Assembly (NCBI RefSeq): GCF_018437505.1 | Contig: NZ_CP072467.1 | Location: forward strand, 2,914,001 to 2,978,000 | From: Spiractinospora alimapuensis | GTDB lineage: Bacteria; Actinomycetota; Actinomycetes; Streptosporangiales; Streptosporangiaceae | Direction: 5' to 3' | Length of the DNA: 64,000 nt | Shown here: positions 3,822 to 62,309 of the stretch, in pieces | Numbering within the stretch: the stretch's first letter is position 1 | Layout: each line of letters starts with the position of its first letter | Program-made: the position numbers and the translations under genes | The notes under the pieces: model-generated | What the model was told of the DNA's origin: nothing | What the model saw: the letters and a program-made list of their open reading frames with translations, nothing else | The model's database searches: none

Positions 3822-5269
3822 CTACATGGACTCCAGGGTGCGGCCCTTGGTCTCGCGGACGTAGCGCAGGACGAAGAAGAAGGAGAGCACCGCGAAGACC
3901 GTGTAGACGGCGTAGGCGCCGGAGAGGTTCCAGTCCCGCAACTGCGGGAAGCTGACGGTGACGAGCCAGTTGGCGATCCACTGGGTCGCCGTGGCGACCG
4001 CCATCGCGGCGGCGCGCACCCGCAGGGGGAACATCTCGCCGAGCAGTACCCAGACGACGACGCCCCAGGATAGGGCGAAGAAGAGGACGAAGAAGCTGGC
4101 GGAGACCAGGGCGACGATGCCCCACTCGAACGGCAGCGAGGCGTTGTCCCCGGCGACCTCGGCGTTGCTGAACGCGAAGGAGGTGACGGCCAGACCGATC
4201 GCCATCCCGACCGAACCGACGAGGAGCAGGGGCTTACGGCCGACCCGGTCGACGAGTGCGATCGCGATGAACGTTCCCACGATGTTGACGAGGGACTGGA
4301 ACAGGCTGAACAGCAGCGAGCTGTCCTCCTGGATCCCGACCGAGTTCCACAGGGATGTGGAGTAGTAGAAGATGACGTTGATGCCGACCAACTGTTGGAA
4401 CGCCGACAGCCCCATGCCGACCCAGACGATCCCCCATCAGGCCGTAACGTCCCCGGAGGTCCCGCAGCCGCGGACGCACCTCCGAGCCGAGCGCCGCCCT
4501 GATCTCGGCGACCCGACGGTCGACGTCGCCCCCCTCGACCTCACGCAGCACCTGACGCGCCTGGTCGTCCCGGCCGATCCGGACCAGATGTCGCGGCGAC
4601 TCCGGGATGACGAAGCTCAGTCCGATGTAGAGCAGGGCCGGCAGCAGTTCCACCCCGAGCATCCACTGCCACGCTTGGAGCGGCCCCAACTCTCCCAGCG
4701 CGCTCCCGCCGGCGGCGATCGCGATCATGTAGTTGACGAGCTGGGCGAGGGCGATGCCCACCACGATGGCCAGTTGCTGCAGGGACGCGAGCCGCCCTCG
4801 GTAGGCGGGCGGCGAGACCTCGGCGATGTAGGTCGGCGCGATCACCGAGGCGATCCCGATGGCGACACCACCCACGACCCGCCAGAAGGCCAGGTCCCAG
4901 ATGGCGAAGGGCAACGCCGACCCGATCGCGCTCACCGCGAACAGCACACCCGCGATCTGCATGACCCGGATCCGTCCGAGCCGGTCGGCCAGGGGGACCG
5001 GCGACGCCGGCCCCCAACGCGGACCCAATGAGCGCCGCGGCCACCGTGAAGCCGATCAGCGCGGCGGTGGTCTGGAAGTGGGACTGGATCGCGTCGACGG
5101 CCCCGTTGATCACGGAGGAGTCGTAGCCGAACAGGAACCCACCCATCGCCGCGGCGCTCGCGATCAGCAATACGTGCGCGATGGAGCGGTCCCCACGGTC
5201 CCTCGCCCCGATTCCGTCGGCAGCCGCCACGATCGTCCTCACCCTCGCCTCGCCGGTGTTCCCGTCCAC
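3822..5269 (-). pseudogene. Sugar porter (MFS) transporter, two frameshifts
   Basis: Three overlapping reading frames together make one 12-TM sugar porter of about 480 residues. The first frame carries FLFGYDSSVINGAVDAI (TM1), the second the DRLGR loop and the sugar-porter signature PESPRHL, and the third QQLVGINVIFYYS, the GRKP loop and the EMFPLRVR signature. The frame changes at a run of five G at 4992-4996 and again at a run of five C at 4431-4435. Removing one base from each run restores family-consistent protein. The cause is either real decay or two homopolymer sequencing errors. If intact it would be a proton-coupled sugar symporter. It lies after the Fsr-like gene but beyond a hairpin at 5335-5357. 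Confidence 0.85.
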
Positions 5270-50500: not shown

Positions 50501-50920
50501 TCACCGCTCGCGCGGCACGAGGTCGAAGTACCCCATCGTTTGAGACTTGACGACGTGAAAATGCCTCCGGTCGAGTGTGGCGATTCGCCGCACCCGCATA
50601 CGCTCGGCGAGAGTGACAACCGAAGCGTCAGTGCCCCCGAGGGGAAGAGCACTGTAGGTACCGACGAGTGCGGACATGCGCCGCCAGTCGCTTCCCGTGA
50701 GGTCCGAGACCTGAATATCCCCCTCGGCGAGGGAACCCAAGAACTGGGACTCCGCCAGCGGACCGAGCTGTCGGTCGATGAGGTAACACGCCTCCGCGAC
50801 TACGAGGGGACTCGTAAACAATGGACCCGGCTCATTCTCGATGACCGCTACGCATGCCTCATGCCACGGATCCGCCTCATCGGCGGCAGCGAGGATAACC
50901 CCCGTGTCGAGGATCAGCAC
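50501..50920 (-). CDS. VapC-type PIN-domain ribonuclease toxin
   Basis: A 139-residue PIN-domain protein. The acidic metal-binding residues are in place: D5 (LILDTGV), E43 (VVAEACY), D98 (GGTDASVV) and D117 (ATLDRRHF). VapC toxins cut tRNA or rRNA when freed from their antitoxin. It overlaps the VapB-like gene upstream by seven bases, the usual antitoxin-first order. Confidence 0.88.
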   Translation of the reverse strand: MLILDTGVILAAADEADPWHEACVAVIENEPGPLFTSPLVVAEACYLIDRQLGPLAESQFLGSLAEGDIQVSDLTGSDWRRMSALVGTYSALPLGGTDASVVTLAERMRVRRIATLDRRHFHVVKSQTMGYFDLVPRER

Positions 50921-51156
50921 CCGGCCTGGTCCCTCCCGAAACCCTCCGCCAGCATGTCATCGGCCTCGGCGGCGGAACGACCGGACGTGGACCTACCCAG
51001 ACCGACGAATCCAGGGCGGTCACGTCGAATGTGCGGGGCTGGAAGGTGCTCCAGCACTAGCTCGCTAACAACCTCGTCCATCGTGACGCCACGTTCCGAC
51101 GCGAGAGCCGCGGCTCGTGCCGCGATCTCGTCAGGCAGAGTCACCACCACGCTCAT
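50914..51156 (-). CDS. VapB-like ribbon-helix-helix antitoxin
   Basis: An 80-residue protein. MSVVVTLPDEIAARAAALASERGVTMDEVVSELV has the strand-helix-helix layout of CopG/RHH antitoxins, and the acidic, Arg-rich tail would wrap the toxin. It probably neutralises the downstream PIN toxin and represses its own promoter. Confidence 0.82.
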   Translation of the reverse strand: MSVVVTLPDEIAARAAALASERGVTMDEVVSELVLEHLPAPHIRRDRPGFVGLGRSTSGRSAAEADDMLAEGFGRDQAGC

Positions 51157-54177: not shown

Positions 54178-54211
54178 ACTCGCAGTGGAGTTCCGATGAG
54201 AGGTGGGTCTC

Positions 54212-54790
54212 ATGCGCACGAAACCGGGGGGACTGACCCCGGCCGCCACCCGCGTCCTCGCGGTGGCCAGCGATCTCTTCTACACCCGTGGAATCAACAC
54301 GGTCGGCATGGAGCTGATCGCCGAGGAGGCCTCGGTGACCAAGAAGACGATCTACGACCGGTTCGGGTCGAAGGAGAACCTCGTGGTCGCCTATCTCCGC
54401 GCGCGGGACGAGCGATGGCGGCACTGGTTGCTGGACCGACTGAACCAGTTCGACAACCCCCGCGACCGCGTCCTGCACACGTTCGACGCGCTCGGCGAAT
54501 GGATGGGGGAAACATCGACGCATGGTTGCGCCATGGTCAACGCCTTCGCGGAACTCACCGACCCCGGGCATCCCGGACGGCTCGTCGTGACCTCCCAGAA
54601 GGAGTGGACACACACGCTGTACCGGGACCTCGCGCGAGAGCTGGGGACCGCGAACCCCGACGCCGTCGCGGAGACACTGTTAGTGCTCCACGAGGGCGCC
54701 GTCATCACGCACGCAGTGGTCGGCCGCGCCGACGCGACAGAGACAGCGCGCCGGGCGGCCGAGCGGCTCCTCCCGGAGGGGGCGTCCTGA
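54212..54790 (+). CDS. TetR-family transcriptional regulator
   Basis: A 192-residue regulator. The N-terminal helix-turn-helix is IAEEASVTKKTIYDRFGSKENLV (about 34-56); the C-terminal domain has TSTHGCAMVNAFAEL and LLVLHEGAVITHAV. Its likely operator, ATACC-N4-GGTAT, occurs between it and the EamA gene and again before the HAD gene. ATG at 54212 is preferred over a GTG nine bases earlier, because GAGGTGGG then sits at a workable distance. Confidence 0.9.
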   Translation: MRTKPGGLTPAATRVLAVASDLFYTRGINTVGMELIAEEASVTKKTIYDRFGSKENLVVAYLRARDERWRHWLLDRLNQFDNPRDRVLHTFDALGEWMGETSTHGCAMVNAFAELTDPGHPGRLVVTSQKEWTHTLYRDLARELGTANPDAVAETLLVLHEGAVITHAVVGRADATETARRAAERLLPEGAS

Positions 54791-54805
54791 GCTCGGGACG
54801 AGGGG

Positions 54806-55810
54806 TCAGGCGTCGAACACGCTCCACTGGGCGTCAGCCGAGGCGATGAAGTCCTGGGGGTAGCCGGCGGTGAACGGGGAGGCCTCGTTCAGGATCCGCA
54901 TCGCCTCAGGGGTGAGCGTGATCCCCGAGGAGCCCACCACGTCGAGGAGTTGGGCCTGGGTGCGGGAGCCCACGATCGGCATGACCGAGGCGTTACGTCC
55001 CCGCAACCAGGCGAGCGCCACCTGGGCCGGCGTGGCACCGATCTCGTCTGCGACGTCCTGGACGGCCCGCGCCGCTGTGCGGTGGGCGGGGGTGACGTGG
55101 TCGGCGGTGAACCTCGTGCTGTCGGCGACCTCCCCGGAGGCGGTGAGCTTGCCCGAGAGGCGACCGCCGGCCAGGGGGCTCCACGCGGTCACGCCGATGC
55201 CCAGGTGCTCGGCCATGGGGAGCAGGTCGCGTTCCACCTCACGTTCGAGCAGGTTGTAGTGCACCTGGAGTCCGACGAACGGGGTCCAGTCGCGCCACTC
55301 GGCGAGGGTGTTCGCCCGGGCGACGACCCAGGCCGGGGCGTTGGAGATCCCCACGTACAGGATCTTTCCCTGGCGAACCGCGTCGTCCAGGGCGCGCATC
55401 ATCTCCTCGAGCGGGGTGTGCTTGTCCCAGATGTGCACCCAGTAGACGTCGACGTAGTCGGTACGGAGTCGCCGAAGGCTCTGCTCCAGCGACAACCTCA
55501 GGTTCTTACGGTGGCCGCCGGCCACGTTGGGGTCATCGCTGTCGTTCGCCCGCGGTGGGACGTACTTCGTGGCGACGACGAAGGAGTCACGCCGCTTCTC
55601 CAGCGCGGCACCCACGACGCTCTCGCTCTCGCCGTAACTCGGCGCGGTGTCGATGACGTTTCCGCCCGCCTCGGCGTAGGTGTCGAACAGCGCGGGGGCG
55701 GTGTCGTCGGGATCGCCCTCGTAGTACCCCATGGCGCCCAGCCACAGGTCCGACACACGGAGCCCACTGTCGCCCAGCAGGCGGTAACCCAGTTTCGGTT
55801 GATCTGCCAT
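54806..55810 (-). CDS. Aldo/keto reductase
   Basis: A 334-residue (beta/alpha)8 NADPH-dependent reductase. SDLWLGAMGYYEGD, the Asp/Tyr of DTAPSYGESESVVG, the Lys of VATKYVPP and the His of VYWVHIWDKHTP form the catalytic set. It belongs to the broad AKR family that reduces aldehydes and ketones; the substrate is unknown. ATG at 55810 with AGGA eight bases upstream; the longer open frame to 55948 has no family match. Confidence 0.88.
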   Translation of the reverse strand: MADQPKLGYRLLGDSGLRVSDLWLGAMGYYEGDPDDTAPALFDTYAEAGGNVIDTAPSYGESESVVGAALEKRRDSFVVATKYVPPRANDSDDPNVAGGHRKNLRLSLEQSLRRLRTDYVDVYWVHIWDKHTPLEEMMRALDDAVRQGKILYVGISNAPAWVVARANTLAEWRDWTPFVGLQVHYNLLEREVERDLLPMAEHLGIGVTAWSPLAGGRLSGKLTASGEVADSTRFTADHVTPAHRTAARAVQDVADEIGATPAQVALAWLRGRNASVMPIVGSRTQAQLLDVVGSSGITLTPEAMRILNEASPFTAGYPQDFIASADAQWSVFDA

Positions 55811-55952
55811 GCCCCGATCCTGACCCCCGGAAGACACCGACACCACCCCGTAGCGTGACCCTGGCGGGGCCACCCTGAGCCCGCGGATCACGCCACCGGT
55901 CGCGTGGACCGGCCGTCGCGACACACCCCGCGTGCCAGCGGGGATCACGCCG

Positions 55953-56342
55953 TCACACCTCGCGGTTGGTCGGGATCACCGCGCAGATCGCGTGGCGTCC
56001 CGCGGTGGCCCGGACGACGTAGCGGTAGGACTCCCCTCCCCGCTCGGTCCCGCCGGCGTCGGAGTAGGACCACCTGACGTCGACCGAGGTCAGGGTGGGC
56101 GTCAACTCCTCCACGGCCGTCAGGGTCGGCGCGGCGACGGCCATGCCGGGGCCGCCGAAGTGTTCCGTGGCACCGCTGAACGCGGTGGTCGCGGCGTCCC
56201 GGTCCGACATCGCGAGGCTCTGGTCATCGCCGAGCGCGAAGGTCGGATAGGCGTAGCAGTCCGCCAGTCGGTTGATGTCCCCCGTTGCGAGGGCGCCACC
56301 GTAGTCGTCGAAGAACCCCCGCAGGCCATCGTGCTCTCCCAT
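55953..56342 (-). CDS. NTF2-like (SnoaL/DUF4440-type) protein
   Basis: A 129-residue alpha+beta cone protein: FFDDYGGALATGDINRLADCYAYP and the C-terminal strands VDVRWSYSDAGGTERGGESYRYVV. The fold is used by cyclases, isomerases and small-molecule binders; no catalytic set can be assigned. It follows the VOC gene on the same strand 21 bp away. Confidence 0.7.
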   Translation of the reverse strand: MGEHDGLRGFFDDYGGALATGDINRLADCYAYPTFALGDDQSLAMSDRDAATTAFSGATEHFGGPGMAVAAPTLTAVEELTPTLTSVDVRWSYSDAGGTERGGESYRYVVRATAGRHAICAVIPTNREV

Positions 56343-56363
56343 GCACCCGGCCCCCCTCTGCGA

Positions 56364-56720
56364 TTACCCGTCTTCTGGGTTATTACCCCAGTTGACGACG
56401 TCTACGGTCCGCCCGTCCGGATCGGTGTAGGTCCCGTCGTCGTTGGGGCGGAGCGCGGAGCTCGGGGGCGCGTCGAGCGCGAGCCCCAGCCGCATCCGCC
56501 CGGTGGCGCGCTCGGGCGAGGTGGCCGGGTACAGCTCCATCACGCAGCCGTCGGAGAGCACCGCCGCATAGTGTCGCGGCCCCCTCCCATGCTTCTCGGG
56601 GACGAAGGTGAGGCCGAGGGACGAGTAGAAGGCGTGGCACTCCTCCAGGCGGGTGGTGTACACGACGAGGAGCCGCACCGAGCTGCCCGAGCGGCGCCGG
56701 ACGGATTCGTCGGGGGTCAC
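56364..56720 (-). CDS. VOC-family protein
   Basis: A 118-residue glyoxalase-fold protein. LLVVYTTRLEECHAFYSSLGLTF is the first unit, and DGTYTDPDGRTVDVVNWG ends the second. GTG at 56720 overlaps the stop of the ArsR gene (GTGA), so the two are translated together. Members of this shape often bind a metal or a small ligand. It may act with the ArsR regulator. Confidence 0.75.
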   Translation of the reverse strand: MTPDESVRRRSGSSVRLLVVYTTRLEECHAFYSSLGLTFVPEKHGRGPRHYAAVLSDGCVMELYPATSPERATGRMRLGLALDAPPSSALRPNDDGTYTDPDGRTVDVVNWGNNPEDG

Positions 56721-57109
56721 TCGTCGCTCCCGTCCCGTGGTGGCGGCGTGACGGCCGCGCCGGCGTGGATCGCGCTCAGCAGGCCGGGGAACCGGGCCTC
56801 CAGGTCGTCCCAGCGGAGACGTACCTCTGTACCGTTGGGCCGCTGTGCCACGAAGATCACTCCCGACTCGCGCAGGACCCGGAAGTGGTGGGTCCGGCCG
56901 GCCTTGCCCACCGGCAGCTCGAACCAGGGGTAGGGGAAGGCGCTGTCCCGGGGCTGGTTGACGAGCATGGCGACGACGCGCAACCGGTTGGGCTCGGCGA
57001 TGGCGCACAGCACTTCACGCAGGTCCAGCTCAGCCCGCTCGGGGTGGTGAATTTCCGGCGGTGTGGCCTGGGCTGTTGGGGAGACAGGGGGCATGGGAGC
57101 GATATCCAC
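56717..57109 (-). CDS. ArsR-type helix-turn-helix regulator
   Basis: A 130-residue winged-helix protein. LREVLCAIAEPNRLRVVAMLVNQPRD is the ArsR N-terminal helix pair, HHFRVLRESGVIFVAQRPNGTEVRLRWDDLEARFPGLL the recognition helix and wing. No clear metal-binding CxC set is seen, so it may sense an organic ligand. It is divergent from the DUF4242 operon; two matching palindromes lie between. GTG at 57109 or ATG at 57094 could be the start. Confidence 0.8.
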   Translation of the reverse strand: MDIAPMPPVSPTAQATPPEIHHPERAELDLREVLCAIAEPNRLRVVAMLVNQPRDSAFPYPWFELPVGKAGRTHHFRVLRESGVIFVAQRPNGTEVRLRWDDLEARFPGLLSAIHAGAAVTPPPRDGSDE

Positions 57110-57119
57110 TTCTCGTCAG

Positions 57120-57137
57120 GTATGACGGTCACCATAC
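57120..57137. promoter_or_regulatory. ArsR operator copy 1
   Basis: GTATGAC-GGTC-ACCATAC, an 18-bp near-palindrome (5 of 7 half-site pairs match). Confidence 0.6.
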
Positions 57138-57156
57138 GCTGTAGCTGAATCGTCGG

Positions 57157-57174
57157 GTATGGTAGCGACCGTAC
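57157..57174. promoter_or_regulatory. ArsR operator copy 2
   Basis: GTATGGT-AGCG-ACCGTAC, an 18-bp palindrome (6 of 7 pairs match), 37 bp from copy 1 with the same half-sites and spacer length. Confidence 0.65.
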
Positions 57175-57208
57175 TCCAGATACCCGATTGATTTAGTTGG
57201 GAATTCGC

Positions 57209-57736
57209 ATGGCCCTCCAGCTGATCGAGCTCACCCCCGACCGGGCGGACCGTGCCGCCGCCGACGCCCTGATCGAGTCCGCCGCCAAGGCCCTCAGCGC
57301 CGGAAACGCGGAGCTCGTCGAGGCCCAGGTCCCCAGTGACTTCGGCCGGGTCTTCCTGATCGCGGAGGAGCGGGCCGACTCGGCCGCCGCCGACGCGCTC
57401 AACACCGCCAGTATCACCTTCGACGACATCGCCGAGGTGCGCCTCGTCGGCGCCGACCTCGAGACCGTCAAGGCGAGCAAGGGCTCGGCCCAGTATCTCG
57501 TGGAGTGGGACCTCCCGGAGGGGCTGAGCATGGACAAGTACCTCGCCCGCAAGGCCGAGAAGTCCCCACTGTACGAGAACGTGCCCGAGACTCAGTTCCT
57601 GCGCACCTACGTGCGTGAGGACATGGGCAAGTGCCTCTGCTTCTACGACGCTCCCGACACCGAAGCCGTGGAGCGCGCCCGCCAGGTCGTCGACACCCCG
57701 ATCGACCGCCTGCACGAGCTGAGCCAGCGGGACTGA
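57209..57736 (+). CDS. DUF4242 (nickel-binding-type) protein with doubled domain
   Basis: A 175-residue protein. The C-terminal half (about 95-170: SAQYLVEWDLPEGLSMDKYL, FLRTYVREDMGKCLCFYDAP, DRLHEL) matches DUF4242, a ferredoxin-like fold for which a nickel-binding Streptomyces member is known. The N-terminal half (LQLIELTPDRADRAAADALI) looks like a divergent second copy. First gene of the operon that encodes the flavoenzyme and ABC transporter. ATG at 57209 with GGGA upstream. Its role there is unknown; metal binding is inference. Confidence 0.7.
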   Translation: MALQLIELTPDRADRAAADALIESAAKALSAGNAELVEAQVPSDFGRVFLIAEERADSAAADALNTASITFDDIAEVRLVGADLETVKASKGSAQYLVEWDLPEGLSMDKYLARKAEKSPLYENVPETQFLRTYVREDMGKCLCFYDAPDTEAVERARQVVDTPIDRLHELSQRD

Positions 57737-57768
57737 GCAAGCCACCCCCCAGTAAGGCGAGGACAACG

Positions 57769-58836
57769 ATGACGACCATCAGCACCCAGACACGCGTTCC
57801 CGACAACGACGGCGAACTCGTCACGTGGTTTGCCGAACGGGCTTCCGACGTCGACCGCAACGGCGCCGACGTGCGGGACGGACTGCGGTGGTTGGGCCAG
57901 CGTGGACTGCTGGACACCGCGGCCCCGCACTCCTGGGACGGCGGCCTGCTGCCCCTGCTCGGCACGGTCGAGAGCGTCGCCCGCGCCTGTCTGAGTTCCG
58001 CGTTCTCGCTGTGGGGGCAGCGGATGGTCATCGAGTACCTGAGTCGGGCCCCGGGGACGCCGTACGTCTCCGGGCTGCTCGACCAGCTCCGCACCGGCGA
58101 GATCACCGGCTCCAGTCACATGGCGCCCGCGCTGAAGGAGATCTCCGGCGTCGGCGACGTGGTGATCACCGCGCGCCGCACCGACGGCGGCTACGTCCTC
58201 AACGGGCCGATCCCCTGGGCGTCGAACCTGTTCCCCGACGCCGTCGTGGTCCTCCCCGCCCGCCTGAGTGATTCCTCGGACGACGACTCCGACCGGATCA
58301 TCGCCACCGTGCGAGTCGGCGCTCCCGGGGTGCGGATCCGCGACTACCCCGAGCTCATGGCGCTGAACGCGACCGCCTCCTCCTCCGGCACCCTAGAGGA
58401 GGTTTTCGTCGCCGACGAAGCCGTGGTGTCCACCGACCTGAGTGCGTTCTGCTCCCAGGTCCGGCCCACGTTGCTGCTGGTCCAGACCGCGTTCTGCACC
58501 GGCCTGACCACCGCCTCCCTGGCCCAGGCGCGTGAGTCGCTGTCCTCCTCGGACTCCATGTTCGACGACGACCTGGACACCCTCGAGGGCGAGCTGGCCG
58601 GGCAGCGGGAACGGCTCGGGGCGTTGGCCACGACCCCACCGCAACCGCGCGCCGCCACCCAACTCCGGCTGGACGCCGCGCTCCTGGCACAGTCCGCCAC
58701 CCGCCTGGAGGCCACCGCCAAGGGCGGCGCGGGATACATGGCCAAGAGCGCCACCAGCCGTCGACTGCGCGAGGCCGCGTTCCTGCCGGTCCAGTCGCCC
58801 ACGGAAGGACACCTACGGTGGGATCTGCGAAACTAG
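57769..58836 (+). CDS. Acyl-CoA dehydrogenase-like flavoprotein
   Basis: A 355-residue protein of the acyl-CoA dehydrogenase fold: GQRGLLDTAAPHSWDGG, TGEITGSSHMAPALK, the flavin-region DGGYVLNGPIPWASN and the C-terminal GGAGYMAKSATSRRLREAAF. Relatives next to SsuABC-like transporters include sulfur-compound monooxygenases of the SfnB/DszC type, so FMN- or FAD-dependent oxidation of an imported compound is possible. No catalytic Glu typical of true acyl-CoA dehydrogenases could be pinned down. It overlaps the ABC ATPase gene by 19 bases. Confidence 0.8.
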   Translation: MTTISTQTRVPDNDGELVTWFAERASDVDRNGADVRDGLRWLGQRGLLDTAAPHSWDGGLLPLLGTVESVARACLSSAFSLWGQRMVIEYLSRAPGTPYVSGLLDQLRTGEITGSSHMAPALKEISGVGDVVITARRTDGGYVLNGPIPWASNLFPDAVVVLPARLSDSSDDDSDRIIATVRVGAPGVRIRDYPELMALNATASSSGTLEEVFVADEAVVSTDLSAFCSQVRPTLLLVQTAFCTGLTTASLAQARESLSSSDSMFDDDLDTLEGELAGQRERLGALATTPPQPRAATQLRLDAALLAQSATRLEATAKGGAGYMAKSATSRRLREAAFLPVQSPTEGHLRWDLRN

Positions 58837-59612
58837 AGGTCCGGTCGGGCCACAAGTCCTACGGGCACCATCCGGTTCTGCGCGGTGTCGACGTCAGCAT
58901 CGACGCGGGACGCACCCTGGTGATCCTCGGTGCGAGCGGCTCCGGAAAGTCGACCCTGCTGCGGATCCTGGCCGGCCTGGAAGACCTGGACTCCGGCGAC
59001 CTCCTGCCCGGTGGGTCGGAACTCGCCACCGGCATGGTGTTCCAGCAGGCGTTGCTGCTGCCCTGGCTCACCGTCCGCGAGAACATCGCGCTCGGCTTGA
59101 GCTACCGCGCCAACCGGGGTCGGGTGAACGCCGGACGAGCGGCGGCCAACGGCGGAACATCCACGACCGTCGGCACCTCCGCCGGCACCAGCGTCACCAT
59201 CGACTCCCTGCTGGACTGGCTCGGACTCGTCGACCTGGCCGACACCCTGCCCGCCCAGCTCTCGGGGGGACAGGCGCAGCGCGCCGCCATCGCCCGCGCG
59301 TTGGCGATCCGCCCCGACGTGCTGCTGTTGGACGAACCGTTCAGCGCGCTCGACCCCCTGACCCGCGCCTCCCTGCAGGACCGGCTGCGCACGGTGATCG
59401 TGGAGCTCGGGCTGACCGTCGTCCTGGTGACACACGACGTCGGCGAGGCCGTCTACCTGGGCGACGAGATCGCGCTGTTGGACGCCACCGGGGCCATCGG
59501 GCACCGGTGGGACGGCGCGCCCGGCGACCGGGACTCAGATCGGGGCCAGGAACTCCAGGAACAGATCCTCGACCGCTACGAGGCCGTGCTTCCCGCAGGC
59601 GCCACGCGATGA
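58818..59612 (+). CDS. ABC transporter ATP-binding protein (SsuB/TauB type)
   Basis: A 264-residue ATPase: Walker A GASGSGKST (38-46), Q-loop MVFQQ, signature LSGGQ (148-152) and Walker B VLLLDEP (168-174). It powers uptake with the permease and binding protein downstream. A Gly/Thr/Ser-rich insert of about 30 residues (98-128) between Q-loop and signature is unusual for this family. GTG start at 58818 lies inside the flavoprotein gene. Confidence 0.92.
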   Translation: MGSAKLEVRSGHKSYGHHPVLRGVDVSIDAGRTLVILGASGSGKSTLLRILAGLEDLDSGDLLPGGSELATGMVFQQALLLPWLTVRENIALGLSYRANRGRVNAGRAAANGGTSTTVGTSAGTSVTIDSLLDWLGLVDLADTLPAQLSGGQAQRAAIARALAIRPDVLLLDEPFSALDPLTRASLQDRLRTVIVELGLTVVLVTHDVGEAVYLGDEIALLDATGAIGHRWDGAPGDRDSDRGQELQEQILDRYEAVLPAGATR

Positions 59613-60775
59613 GCGTCAACCGCCGCACCCTCCTCGGCGGGGGGATCGGGCTCGGGCTGGCCGCGGGGCTCGGCGCCACCGCCGCGGGGCTGCGCCCCTC
59701 CGACGCCGCCTCGGCGTCCTCGGCGCTGCGCATCGGCTACCTGCCGATCACCGACGCCGCCCCCCTGCTGGTCGCACACCAGCGCGGGCTGTACGAGGAC
59801 TTCGACGTTCCCGTGGCCGAACCCGTCCGGTTCCGGAGCTGGGCGGAGCTCGCGCAGGCGTTCGTGGCCGGACGGGTCGACGTGGTCCACCTCCTCGCCC
59901 CGTTCGCGGTCCAGCTCCGGTACGGGATGGGCGCGCCGGTCCGACTCATCGCGTGGAACCACACCAACGGTTCGGCCATCACTCTCTCCGACACGATGTC
60001 GGGGCTCTCGGACCTGGCCGGTCAGACCTTCGCCATCCCCTACTGGTGGTCGATCCACAACATCCTGTCCCAGGACCTGTTCCGCGAGTCCGGTCTGCGC
60101 CCCGTGGTGCGCAAGACCCCGTCGGCGAGTGACGGTGAGGTCCGCGTCGTGGTGATGAGCCCCAGCGACATGCTCCCCGCGATGTCCAACGGCGTCATCG
60201 CCGGATACTCCGTCGCCGATCCGTTCAACGCGATGGCCGAGGTGCGCGAGGTGGGCCGGATCCACCGCTTCCTCGGTGACCTGTGGCGGAACCATGCCTG
60301 CTGCGCGGTGGTGATGCGGGAGGACACCATCGACGGGGACCCCGGCCTGGTGCAACGGTTCACCAACGCCCTCACGACCGCGCAACTCGACATCAACGCG
60401 GACCGGCCGGCCGCGGCGACCGCCCTGACCGAGGGCTACCTGCCCCAGCCGGAGCCCGCGATCGCCCGAGCCCTGACCTACCCGACGGAGGAGTACGCCG
60501 ACTCCGGTGCGGTGCTGCGCCCCGACTGGCACGGCAACCAGATCGGTTTCGCGCCGTTCCCGTTCGCCGACTACACCGAGAACCTGGTGGACGCGATGGG
60601 ACGCACCCTGGTCGACGTCGACACGCGCTTCCTCGACGACCTCGACCCGGCCGACGTCCACGCCGACCTCGTGGACGACACCTTCGCCCGCGAGGCGATC
60701 GAGGCGTCGGGCTCCCCCGCCGCGTTCGGACTTCCCGACTCCCTCACCCGCACCGAAGAAGTGGACATCACATGA
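59609..60775 (+). CDS. ABC substrate-binding protein (SsuA/NrtA-like)
   Basis: A 388-residue binding protein of the NMT1/THI5/SsuA group: RIGYLPITDAAPLLVAHQRGLYEDF and FAIPYWWSIHNILSQDLF are characteristic. Instead of a lipobox it has a twin-arginine start (NRRTLLGGG, R5-R6), so folded export by Tat is likely. ATG at 59609 overlaps the ATPase stop. The group includes binders for sulfonates, nitrate, taurine and pyrimidine precursors; the ligand here is unknown. Confidence 0.9.
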   Translation: MSVNRRTLLGGGIGLGLAAGLGATAAGLRPSDAASASSALRIGYLPITDAAPLLVAHQRGLYEDFDVPVAEPVRFRSWAELAQAFVAGRVDVVHLLAPFAVQLRYGMGAPVRLIAWNHTNGSAITLSDTMSGLSDLAGQTFAIPYWWSIHNILSQDLFRESGLRPVVRKTPSASDGEVRVVVMSPSDMLPAMSNGVIAGYSVADPFNAMAEVREVGRIHRFLGDLWRNHACCAVVMREDTIDGDPGLVQRFTNALTTAQLDINADRPAAATALTEGYLPQPEPAIARALTYPTEEYADSGAVLRPDWHGNQIGFAPFPFADYTENLVDAMGRTLVDVDTRFLDDLDPADVHADLVDDTFAREAIEASGSPAAFGLPDSLTRTEEVDIT

Positions 60776-61572
60776 GCGGCACACCTGAGGGCACACCACG
60801 GAGGCTGCTGCTGGTCCTCGTGCCGATCCTGGTGGCGGTCGCCCTGTGGTGGCTACTGACCTCCGTCATCGCGTCAGGCCACGTGGTGCTGTCCGGCTTC
60901 GCCCCACAGCACGCGTTCCCCGCCCTATGGGAGTTCGCCCTCCACGGAACCCTCTTCTCCGACACCCAGGCGAGCCTGTGGCGTCTCCTGCTCGGGCTCG
61001 GCATCGCCACCGCGGTGGGTGTGCCGCTGGGGCTGACCGTGGGGTTGATTCCAGCGGCCGAGCGGGCCACCCAGCCTCTCTTCCACTTCCTGCGGATGAT
61101 CTCCCCGTTGTCGTGGGCGCCGGTGGCGATCGCGGTATTCGGCATCGGACACCAGCCGGTCTACTTCCTGGTGGCGGTCGCCGCCGTGTGGCCGATCGTC
61201 CTGAGCACGGCCGCGGGCGTCCGGGCGATCGACCCCGGGTTCCTCCAGGTGGCCCGCTCCCTGGGTGCCACCTCCACCGAAGTGCTGCGCACCGTCATCC
61301 TGCCGGCCGTGCGCACCCCCATCCTGACCGGCCTACGCCTGGCGCTGGGTACCGCGTGGATCGTCATCGTCCCAGCCGAGATGCTCGGCGTGGACTCCGG
61401 CCTCGGCTACGCCATCCTCAACGCGCGCGACCAGCTCGCCTTCGACGAACTCATGGCCGTCATCCTGTGGATCGGCCTCCTCGGCTACCTCATGGACGCC
61501 CTCTTCCGCGCCCTGCTCACCCGCTCAGTCCCGGCCGCCCAGCGCGAGTCCGCGCCGCAACCGGTGGGGTGA
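60772..61572 (+). CDS. ABC transporter permease (SsuC-type)
   Basis: A 266-residue permease with six hydrophobic segments and the EAA-like loop ARSLGATSTEVLRTVILPA. ATG at 60772 overlaps the binding-protein stop (ATGA). It completes the operon DUF4242-flavoprotein-ATPase-binding protein-permease. Confidence 0.92.
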   Translation: MSGTPEGTPRRLLLVLVPILVAVALWWLLTSVIASGHVVLSGFAPQHAFPALWEFALHGTLFSDTQASLWRLLLGLGIATAVGVPLGLTVGLIPAAERATQPLFHFLRMISPLSWAPVAIAVFGIGHQPVYFLVAVAAVWPIVLSTAAGVRAIDPGFLQVARSLGATSTEVLRTVILPAVRTPILTGLRLALGTAWIVIVPAEMLGVDSGLGYAILNARDQLAFDELMAVILWIGLLGYLMDALFRALLTRSVPAAQRESAPQPVG

Positions 61573-61697: not shown

Positions 61698-62309
61698 TCA
61701 CTGAGGGACGGTCGGAGCGGGCAACGGTGCGATCTCACGGTGGAAGAACTCCAGGACGGGCTCGGCCTCCGCGAACAGCGACGCCATCGCGACGCGCACC
61801 GCGGTGATCCCGTCAGGGTCGTCGATGTGCCGTGCCTCCATCGGTGTTCCGTCGGATTCCTGTACCACGTGGTACAGGACATGCTCACCGAGGAGCACCA
61901 AATCTGGGAGGGGTCCGAAACGCTCACGGTCCGCGACGCGGCCCGCTTCCAGGACCCGCAGCGGAAAACCTTCCTCCGCCAGGATTCGGAAGTACTGCAT
62001 CTCCCACTGGACATAGGGCGTGACCGGCTTCTCGACGATGCGCAGCCGACGGATCTCGACACCCCGTTCGCGCAGTGAACTAGCTTCGGCGCGGGCCCCG
62101 ACGCGTTCCTGTTCGTTCAGGACGAGCGAGCGCTCCCAGTCGCCGGCGACGAACGCCTCCCAACTCGGGTCGCCGTGCTCCTGGTACGTCTGGCCACGTT
62201 CCAGCTTCCACAGCACACCCGTGAGCTGGGCGAATTCGGCGGCGAAGTCCTCGTGGTAGGCGGAACGGTCGAGCCGTTTACCCACCATCTCGGGGATTCG
62301 CTCAAGCAT
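61698..62309 (-). CDS. DUF6879-family protein
   Basis: A 203-residue protein. LWKLERGQTYQE, SWEAFVAGDWERSLVL and YVQWEMQYFRILAEEGFPLRVL follow the DUF6879 pattern, common in actinobacteria beside small cysteine-rich or DUF397 proteins and XRE regulators. The function is unknown. It starts eight bases inside the preceding small gene, so the pair is coupled. Confidence 0.8.
   Translation of the reverse strand: MLERIPEMVGKRLDRSAYHEDFAAEFAQLTGVLWKLERGQTYQEHGDPSWEAFVAGDWERSLVLNEQERVGARAEASSLRERGVEIRRLRIVEKPVTPYVQWEMQYFRILAEEGFPLRVLEAGRVADRERFGPLPDLVLLGEHVLYHVVQESDGTPMEARHIDDPDGITAVRVAMASLFAEAEPVLEFFHREIAPLPAPTVPQ

Follow-up and report, generated by a model that had tools for sequence, protein, structure and literature searches.

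In this study, we analysed a stretch of 64,000 nucleotides (nt) from the actinomycete Spiractinospora alimapuensis (the window; contig NZ_CP072467.1, positions 2,914,001 to 2,978,000), whose genome is a single contig of 5.86 Mb. A set of five genes lies on the plus strand at window positions 57209-61572, in which a small DUF4242 protein and a flavoprotein are joined to an ATP-binding cassette (ABC) transporter:

57209..57736, plus strand: DUF4242 (PF14026) protein of 175 amino acids (aa), with the Pfam domain at residues 96-170 and a C142-x-C144 motif
57769..58836, plus strand: flavoprotein with the acyl-CoA-dehydrogenase fold, 355 aa, assigned by profile, PDB and fold matches
58818..59612, plus strand: ABC transporter ATPase of the NitT/TauT type, with a GTG start (ABC_tran, 103 bits)
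59609..60775, plus strand: substrate-binding protein of the NMT1_2/NrtA type with a twin-arginine-like leader, a homolog of the binding protein of the Synechococcus elongatus plasmid pANL (very likely SrpL)
60772..61572, plus strand: ABC permease (BPD_transp_1, 79 bits), whose pANL counterpart by position is very likely SrpM

A gap of 32 nt separates the DUF4242 and flavoprotein genes, and the genes for the flavoprotein, ATPase, binding protein and permease overlap one another by 19, 4 and 4 nt. An operon with these overlaps, divergent from an ArsR-like gene, had been described in the original prediction, and the sequence confirmed it. The same prediction had proposed a search for the five-gene order in other genomes, and this order was found in 20 complete DUF4242 loci, which supports the claim of a conserved uptake-plus-flavoenzyme operon.

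We mapped 52 loci, which were picked for holding the flavoprotein or DUF4242 and in which near-copies from one genus (g73) weigh heavily. A small partner gene adjoined the flavoprotein gene in 51 of them, encoding DUF4242 in 24, an OsmC protein in 22 and an AhpD-like protein (carboxymuconolactone decarboxylase family) in 5, and only L061 had none. DUF4242 adjoined the flavoprotein in all 24 of the DUF4242-type loci mapped besides the window; in addition to the 20 complete loci, three (L036, L055 and L062) were cut by contig ends and kept the same order. The five-gene order was found again in Actinomycetota, Cyanobacteriota and Thermomicrobiota, and this recurrence across three phyla is more than chance. 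A scan of genome contigs found six flavoprotein relatives (five from Pseudonocardia and one from an actinomycete metagenome-assembled genome), all of which adjoin DUF4242 and ATPase genes. The genome searches brought in carriers from further families and classes; as they scored 5-17 candidates per genome, the counts by phylum and class are lower bounds: within the phylum, the flavoprotein model matched at least 8 of 396 sampled genomes, and within the class, the DUF4242 model matched at least 8 of 394. In a set of 120 relatives, most of them from the same family, matches better than 1e-50 occurred only in the host's own genome and in genomes G097 and G080; 63 genomes matched at 1e-3, and the remaining matches look like general acyl-CoA-dehydrogenase paralogs. 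The flavoprotein was present in 42 of 118 genomes of g73, and its surroundings were mapped in 26 of these (8 with DUF4242, 18 with OsmC). Because the five-gene set is patchy and yet conserved, its distribution suggests horizontal spread. Separately, DUF4242, flavoprotein and Xan_ur permease genes follow one another at 8188-11417 of L065, in a 2.0-Mb genome (G760) without PAPS_reduct.

The PF14026 domain was matched in the DUF4242 protein at 75 bits (cut-off 28.5). Both C142 and C144 were kept in 25 of 25 copies, one cysteine was kept in all 22 OsmC partners, and the AhpD-like partners had a CxxC motif in 5 of 5. We believed that these partners share a thiol role, and that they may act as sulfur acceptor or reductant. 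The partner types clustered on the flavoprotein tree, where OsmC needed two changes; therefore, a partner swap happened, and probably more than once. In a second tree, the best-supported branches forced only one OsmC change, yet a single change occurred in 0% of 200 bootstrap trees (13 near-copies were excluded by hand from the first tree and 8 more from the second). Comparison of the DUF4242 profile with the PDB gave chance-level matches only. An origin of DUF4242 by internal duplication was not supported, as hhalign gave 1% probability for its N half against its C half.

Flavoprotein identity to that of the window falls to 22% across partner types, whereas the binding proteins are 37-60% identical to that of the window over nearly their full length (the binding protein of L097, a different, long-branch protein, was excluded from this count). 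Because the binding proteins are conserved while the flavoproteins diverge, the imported substrate may be common to the partner types. The binding protein matched NMT1_2 (PF13379) at 149.4 bits (cut-off 24.7), and its nearest PDB entries by sequence and fold were 3un6, NrtA and CmpA, which relates it to the NrtABCD and CmpABCD transporters; the permease scored 132.8 bits against the NtrB model, below the cut-off of 209. Cys232 of the window protein, which stands in an H-[AP]-C-C motif, aligned with NrtA chain residue K240, which we take to be K269 of the full-length numbering and a nitrate ligand. The motif is not unique, since two other OsmC forms have NrtA-like neighbours that carry it too. 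The best permease model was SaoP of the NCBIfam SaoX/SaoP/SaoA group (152 bits, cut-off 295), and SaoX was the second-best model for the binding protein (54 bits, cut-off 300). The aliphatic sulfonate transporter models were also below cut-off (TIGR01728, 70.3 of 163.5 bits; NF008420, 166.2 of 395; NF008470, 118.2 of 347). Export of the binding protein by the twin-arginine route, as originally predicted, stands as a reading by eye of the leader SVNRRTLLGG.

No Pfam family scored above its cut-off for the flavoprotein (Acyl-CoA_dh_N, PF02771, 13.6 of 22.9 bits; Acyl-CoA_dh_M, PF02770, 13.2 of 33.3 bits). Its nearest profile and PDB relatives were SfnB and acyl-CoA-dehydrogenase-type models and structures, and its top NCBIfam match was SfnB (TIGR04022), at 28.5 bits with a cut-off of 430.9. 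Structure models were built on 7-row alignments, with mean predicted local distance difference test (pLDDT) values of 77.9 and 72.5; the latter, that of the flavoprotein, was placed by fold search among the acyl-CoA dehydrogenases, with no single function picked out. In the alignment to 3nf4, the position of the EGT-motif glutamate is a serine in the flavoprotein. Other acyl-CoA-dehydrogenase subfamilies place the catalytic base elsewhere. Flavin reductase or rubredoxin-oxidoreductase genes lie near some OsmC forms. Because serine replaces the EGT glutamate and reductase genes accompany some OsmC forms, we believed that a flavin-dependent oxygenase or oxidase is more probable than an acyl-CoA dehydrogenase; most DUF4242 operons, however, have no reductase gene of their own, L037 having one nearby.

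The plasmid pANL of S. elongatus PCC 7942 carries a complete five-gene operon with the same genes, order and direction as the window, at identities of 49% for DUF4242, 43% for the binding protein and 29% for the flavoprotein. Immediately upstream of it are genes for cysteine synthase and gamma-glutamyltransferase, whereas the window operon faces ArsR-like, VOC-like and NTF2-like genes; other genes on pANL are srpI, epsC, a second cysK and that of the cysteine desulfurase CyD. The excerpt of PMC8049743 explains srp as sulfur-regulated plasmid-encoded. In the excerpts of PMC13125312, srpL is a TauA/NrtA-type binding protein and srpM a TauC-type permease, and their transcripts fall together with those of srpD and sulfate uptake. 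Judging from the product type and from tblastn, which placed the binding protein at a single site in the pANL record, the binding-protein and permease genes of pANL are very likely srpL and srpM. A copy of the operon on a Pseudonocardia plasmid is part of a sulfur island, which also holds a sulfonate ABC set, an NtaA/DmoA-family monooxygenase, a hydroxyethylthiazole kinase and a rhodanese-like gene. An S-adenosylmethionine (SAM) riboswitch was found in 1 of 19 loci scanned (L035, Pseudonocardia spinosispora), about 4.6 kb from the operon and outside its leader; it lies at 4635-4733 on the minus strand (56.6 bits), upstream of two genes labelled by eye as LLM-type monooxygenase-like. The riboswitch search of the window operon found none. 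The excerpt of PMC8466066 reports that a PA2504 mutant of Pseudomonas aeruginosa has lower levels of PA2328-PA2330 (NrtA-like protein, ATPase and acyl-CoA dehydrogenase) as well as of the transcripts for sulfur assimilation, and that of PMC10687435, citing Frangipani 2014, reports that PA2328-PA2331 are up with endogenous hydrogen cyanide (HCN). The original prediction that the cluster imports and oxidises an organic, perhaps sulfur-bearing, compound is thus backed, as to its sulfur role, by the pANL and srp naming, the Pseudonocardia island and the SAM riboswitch, and import and oxidation stay at the level of prediction.

DUF4242 and the flavoprotein were present together in 19 carrier genomes of 9 genera. 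PAPS_reduct was absent in four of them (G080, G776, G760 and G482) and NIR_SIR in three (G080, G231 and G482; completeness 93, 95 and 91%), and G776 and G760 each had NIR_SIR as a single NirB-sized frame (893-917 aa). Some carriers are thus without genes of sulfate or sulfite reduction, and if the operon supplies sulfur in them, we would expect this sulfur to be released in reduced form and not as sulfite. OsmC forms with cyanase genes were found at 8 of the 18 g73 loci fetched, and also in Marinobacter and Acetobacter. They fall in two separate flavoprotein clades; the Marinobacter and Acetobacter forms share one clade and both have a rubredoxin-FAD oxidoreductase gene. In the Rhodobacterales OsmC forms L126 and L135, a sulfurtransferase gene directly follows the flavoprotein gene. 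Obligate pairing with cyanase was rejected for the DUF4242 forms. By labels given on sight, the g73 OsmC-(cyanase)-flavoprotein clusters (L057-L059 and L104-L118) are followed by a zinc-finger anti-sigma-like gene in 18 of 18 cases, and 15 of these 18 have an FNT formate/nitrite-type channel gene. At 4329-10918 of L136, on a plasmid of Acetobacter ascendens, the OsmC, flavoprotein, rubredoxin-oxidoreductase, CmpA/NrtA-type transporter and cyanase genes all run in one direction.

We consider it probable that the operon is a sulfur-scavenging system, by which a small sulfur-bearing anion is imported and oxidised and reduced sulfur is released. The binding protein, permease and ATPase would import the anion, and the flavoprotein would oxidise it. 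The conserved cysteine or cysteines of the partner (DUF4242 here, OsmC or AhpD-like elsewhere) may accept or reduce a sulfur-bearing intermediate, and cysteine synthesis would receive the sulfur in a reduced state, as sulfane or sulfide. Thiocyanate (SCN-) fits the combination of sulfur regulation, cyanate lyase, sulfurtransferase, cyanide and an NrtA-type binding protein, and is therefore our best single guess at the substrate, a tentative one that could easily be wrong; the reaction would then be SCN- to OCN- plus sulfane sulfur (S0). With slightly less confidence still, we speculate that a widespread route of SCN- assimilation exists, with an ABC importer, a flavin enzyme and a swappable thiol partner that carries the sulfur, in which cyanase or a rhodanese-type sulfurtransferase is optional.

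A number of observations weigh against sulfur scavenging or against thiocyanate as its substrate. The window genome itself has PAPS_reduct and NIR_SIR matches, and the carriers without NIR_SIR may take up amino acids instead. No cyanase match was found in the window genome; among the 9 carrier genera, cyanase was matched in just 2 and in none of the other 7, and it stood beside none of 25 DUF4242 forms and none of 6 AhpD-like forms, compared with 10 of 24 OsmC forms. Of the 24 DUF4242 loci, 1 (L065) has DUF4242 and the flavoprotein without ABC genes, followed by a Xan_ur permease. To our knowledge, there is no precedent for a flavoprotein acting on thiocyanate. The assignment of srpL and srpM to the pANL genes does not come from a locus tag, and the excerpts of PMC13125312 file the two genes under nitrate uptake. 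The likeness of PA2327-PA2331 to the window operon is one of annotation, which suggests an AhpD-like protein, a flavoprotein, an ATPase, a binding protein and a permease. Because PA2330 and PA2331 are activated by quorum sensing according to the excerpt of PMC8863103, the HCN link of PA2328-PA2331 might be an indirect one or a sign of sulfur shortage.

Other explanations were weighed against the same evidence. Like SsuABC, TauABC and SfnB, the window operon combines a NitT/TauT-type transporter with a flavin enzyme, probably for sulfur supply, and the Pseudonocardia copy adjoins sulfonate genes, with SfnB as the best family match of the flavoprotein. An Ssu/Sfn-like system for sulfonates or sulfones, with alkanesulfonate-type import and flavin-dependent desulfonation to sulfite, is nevertheless unlikely in our judgement: the window operon adds a cysteine-bearing partner, all Ssu, Tau and SfnB models scored far below cut-off, sulfite could not be assimilated by the usual route in the three carriers without NIR_SIR (two of them only 91-93% complete) and the two more that have only the NirB-sized frame, and the cyanase and sulfurtransferase neighbours would be left unexplained. 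The sulfonate substrate of the original prediction is weakened by these model scores and by the 3 of 19 carriers without NIR_SIR. We gave even less credit to a nitrogen or cyanide/cyanate system that would import a C-N compound (cyanide or a nitrile) and oxidise it to cyanate, with the sulfur neighbours being coincidental. Cyanase in two flavoprotein clades, a binding protein near NrtA and CmpA, and the rise of PA2328-PA2331 with HCN speak for such a system, and are opposed by the pANL context, the srp naming, the fall of PA2328-PA2330 with the sulfur regulon, the sulfurtransferase neighbours and the absence of cyanase in 7 of 9 carrier genera.

Two points count for a module against thiol or oxidative stress, with the partners as reductants of peroxides or oxidised thiols and the transporter as a means to recover a thiol: OsmC and AhpD belong to thiol-peroxidase families, and the pANL operon region includes a catalase-family gene. 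We regard such a module as very improbable, since every complete DUF4242 or AhpD-like locus has an importer with a binding protein next to the flavoprotein, and the excerpt of PMC10687435 does not call PA2328-PA2331 mutants susceptible to sodium hypochlorite (NaOCl). Import of nickel or another metal complex, which the original prediction had also offered, hardly comes into consideration. The PF14026 domain is common to the window protein and nickel-binding SCO4226 (described in the excerpt of PMC4186839), and 3un6, the nearest PDB entry to the binding protein, was solved with zinc. The window protein differs from SCO4226 in an unassigned N-terminal half and the CxC motif; it scored 20.3 bits against the SCO4226 equivalog NF033706 (cut-off 125), and three of the four mapped nickel ligands are replaced, D43, S46 and E74 mapping to R, M and R in an ungapped register with only H76 kept (the His76 position is histidine in 21 of 25 DUF4242 copies). 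Both the equivalog score and the replaced ligands speak against the metal claim, which we rejected on these grounds.

Upstream of the operon and divergent from it, the following features were found:

56717..57109, minus strand: ArsR-like winged-helix protein, divergent from the operon, weak match
56364..56723, minus strand: VOC/glyoxalase-like protein, weak match
55953..56342, minus strand: NTF2-like protein, weak match
57113-57137 and 57150-57174, no strand: two 25-nt repeats with dyads, 72% alike, in the divergent promoter region, candidate operator

The ArsR-like gene is 99 nt from the DUF4242 gene. All three proteins scored below the Pfam cut-offs (HTH_5, 11.7 bits; Glyoxalase, 15.5; DUF6841, 12.9), the ArsR-like protein reached 20.9 bits against the ArsR/SmtB metalloregulator model NF033788 (cut-off 55), and inspection by eye found no ELCVCDL-type metal box in it. 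The three genes recurred beside none of the 52 mapped loci, and we rejected them as part of the system. Control by ArsR, as originally proposed, is thus supported by position in the window genome only, where the repeat pair at 57113..57174 may serve as the operator. As for the wider surroundings, a TetR-like regulator (by eye) and an aldo/keto reductase (238 bits) at 54203-55948 adjoin the NTF2-like gene, a DUF6879 protein (112 bits) is encoded on the minus strand just downstream of the operon at 61698-62309, and two overlapping small genes on the minus strand at 50501-51156 resemble, on inspection by eye, a PIN-type toxin with its antitoxin.

Literature searches on thiocyanate uptake by genes of this kind, and on their combination, found nothing describing the system, and no description of the operon's chemistry was found in the literature searched. 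The operon is not entirely new, because one relative bears a name that marks it as sulfur-regulated; calling it undescribed was too strong, as the S. elongatus copy very likely carries the srp names. If sulfur scavenging is true, a sulfur-acquisition system in at least five phyla, whose genes so far bear only the labels nitrate/sulfonate transport and acyl-CoA dehydrogenase, would gain a function and a substrate open to testing, and PF14026 (DUF4242) would gain a role besides nickel binding. It would also explain why OsmC, AhpD-like and DUF4242 proteins replace one another, and would link sulfur supply with cyanide and cyanate metabolism.

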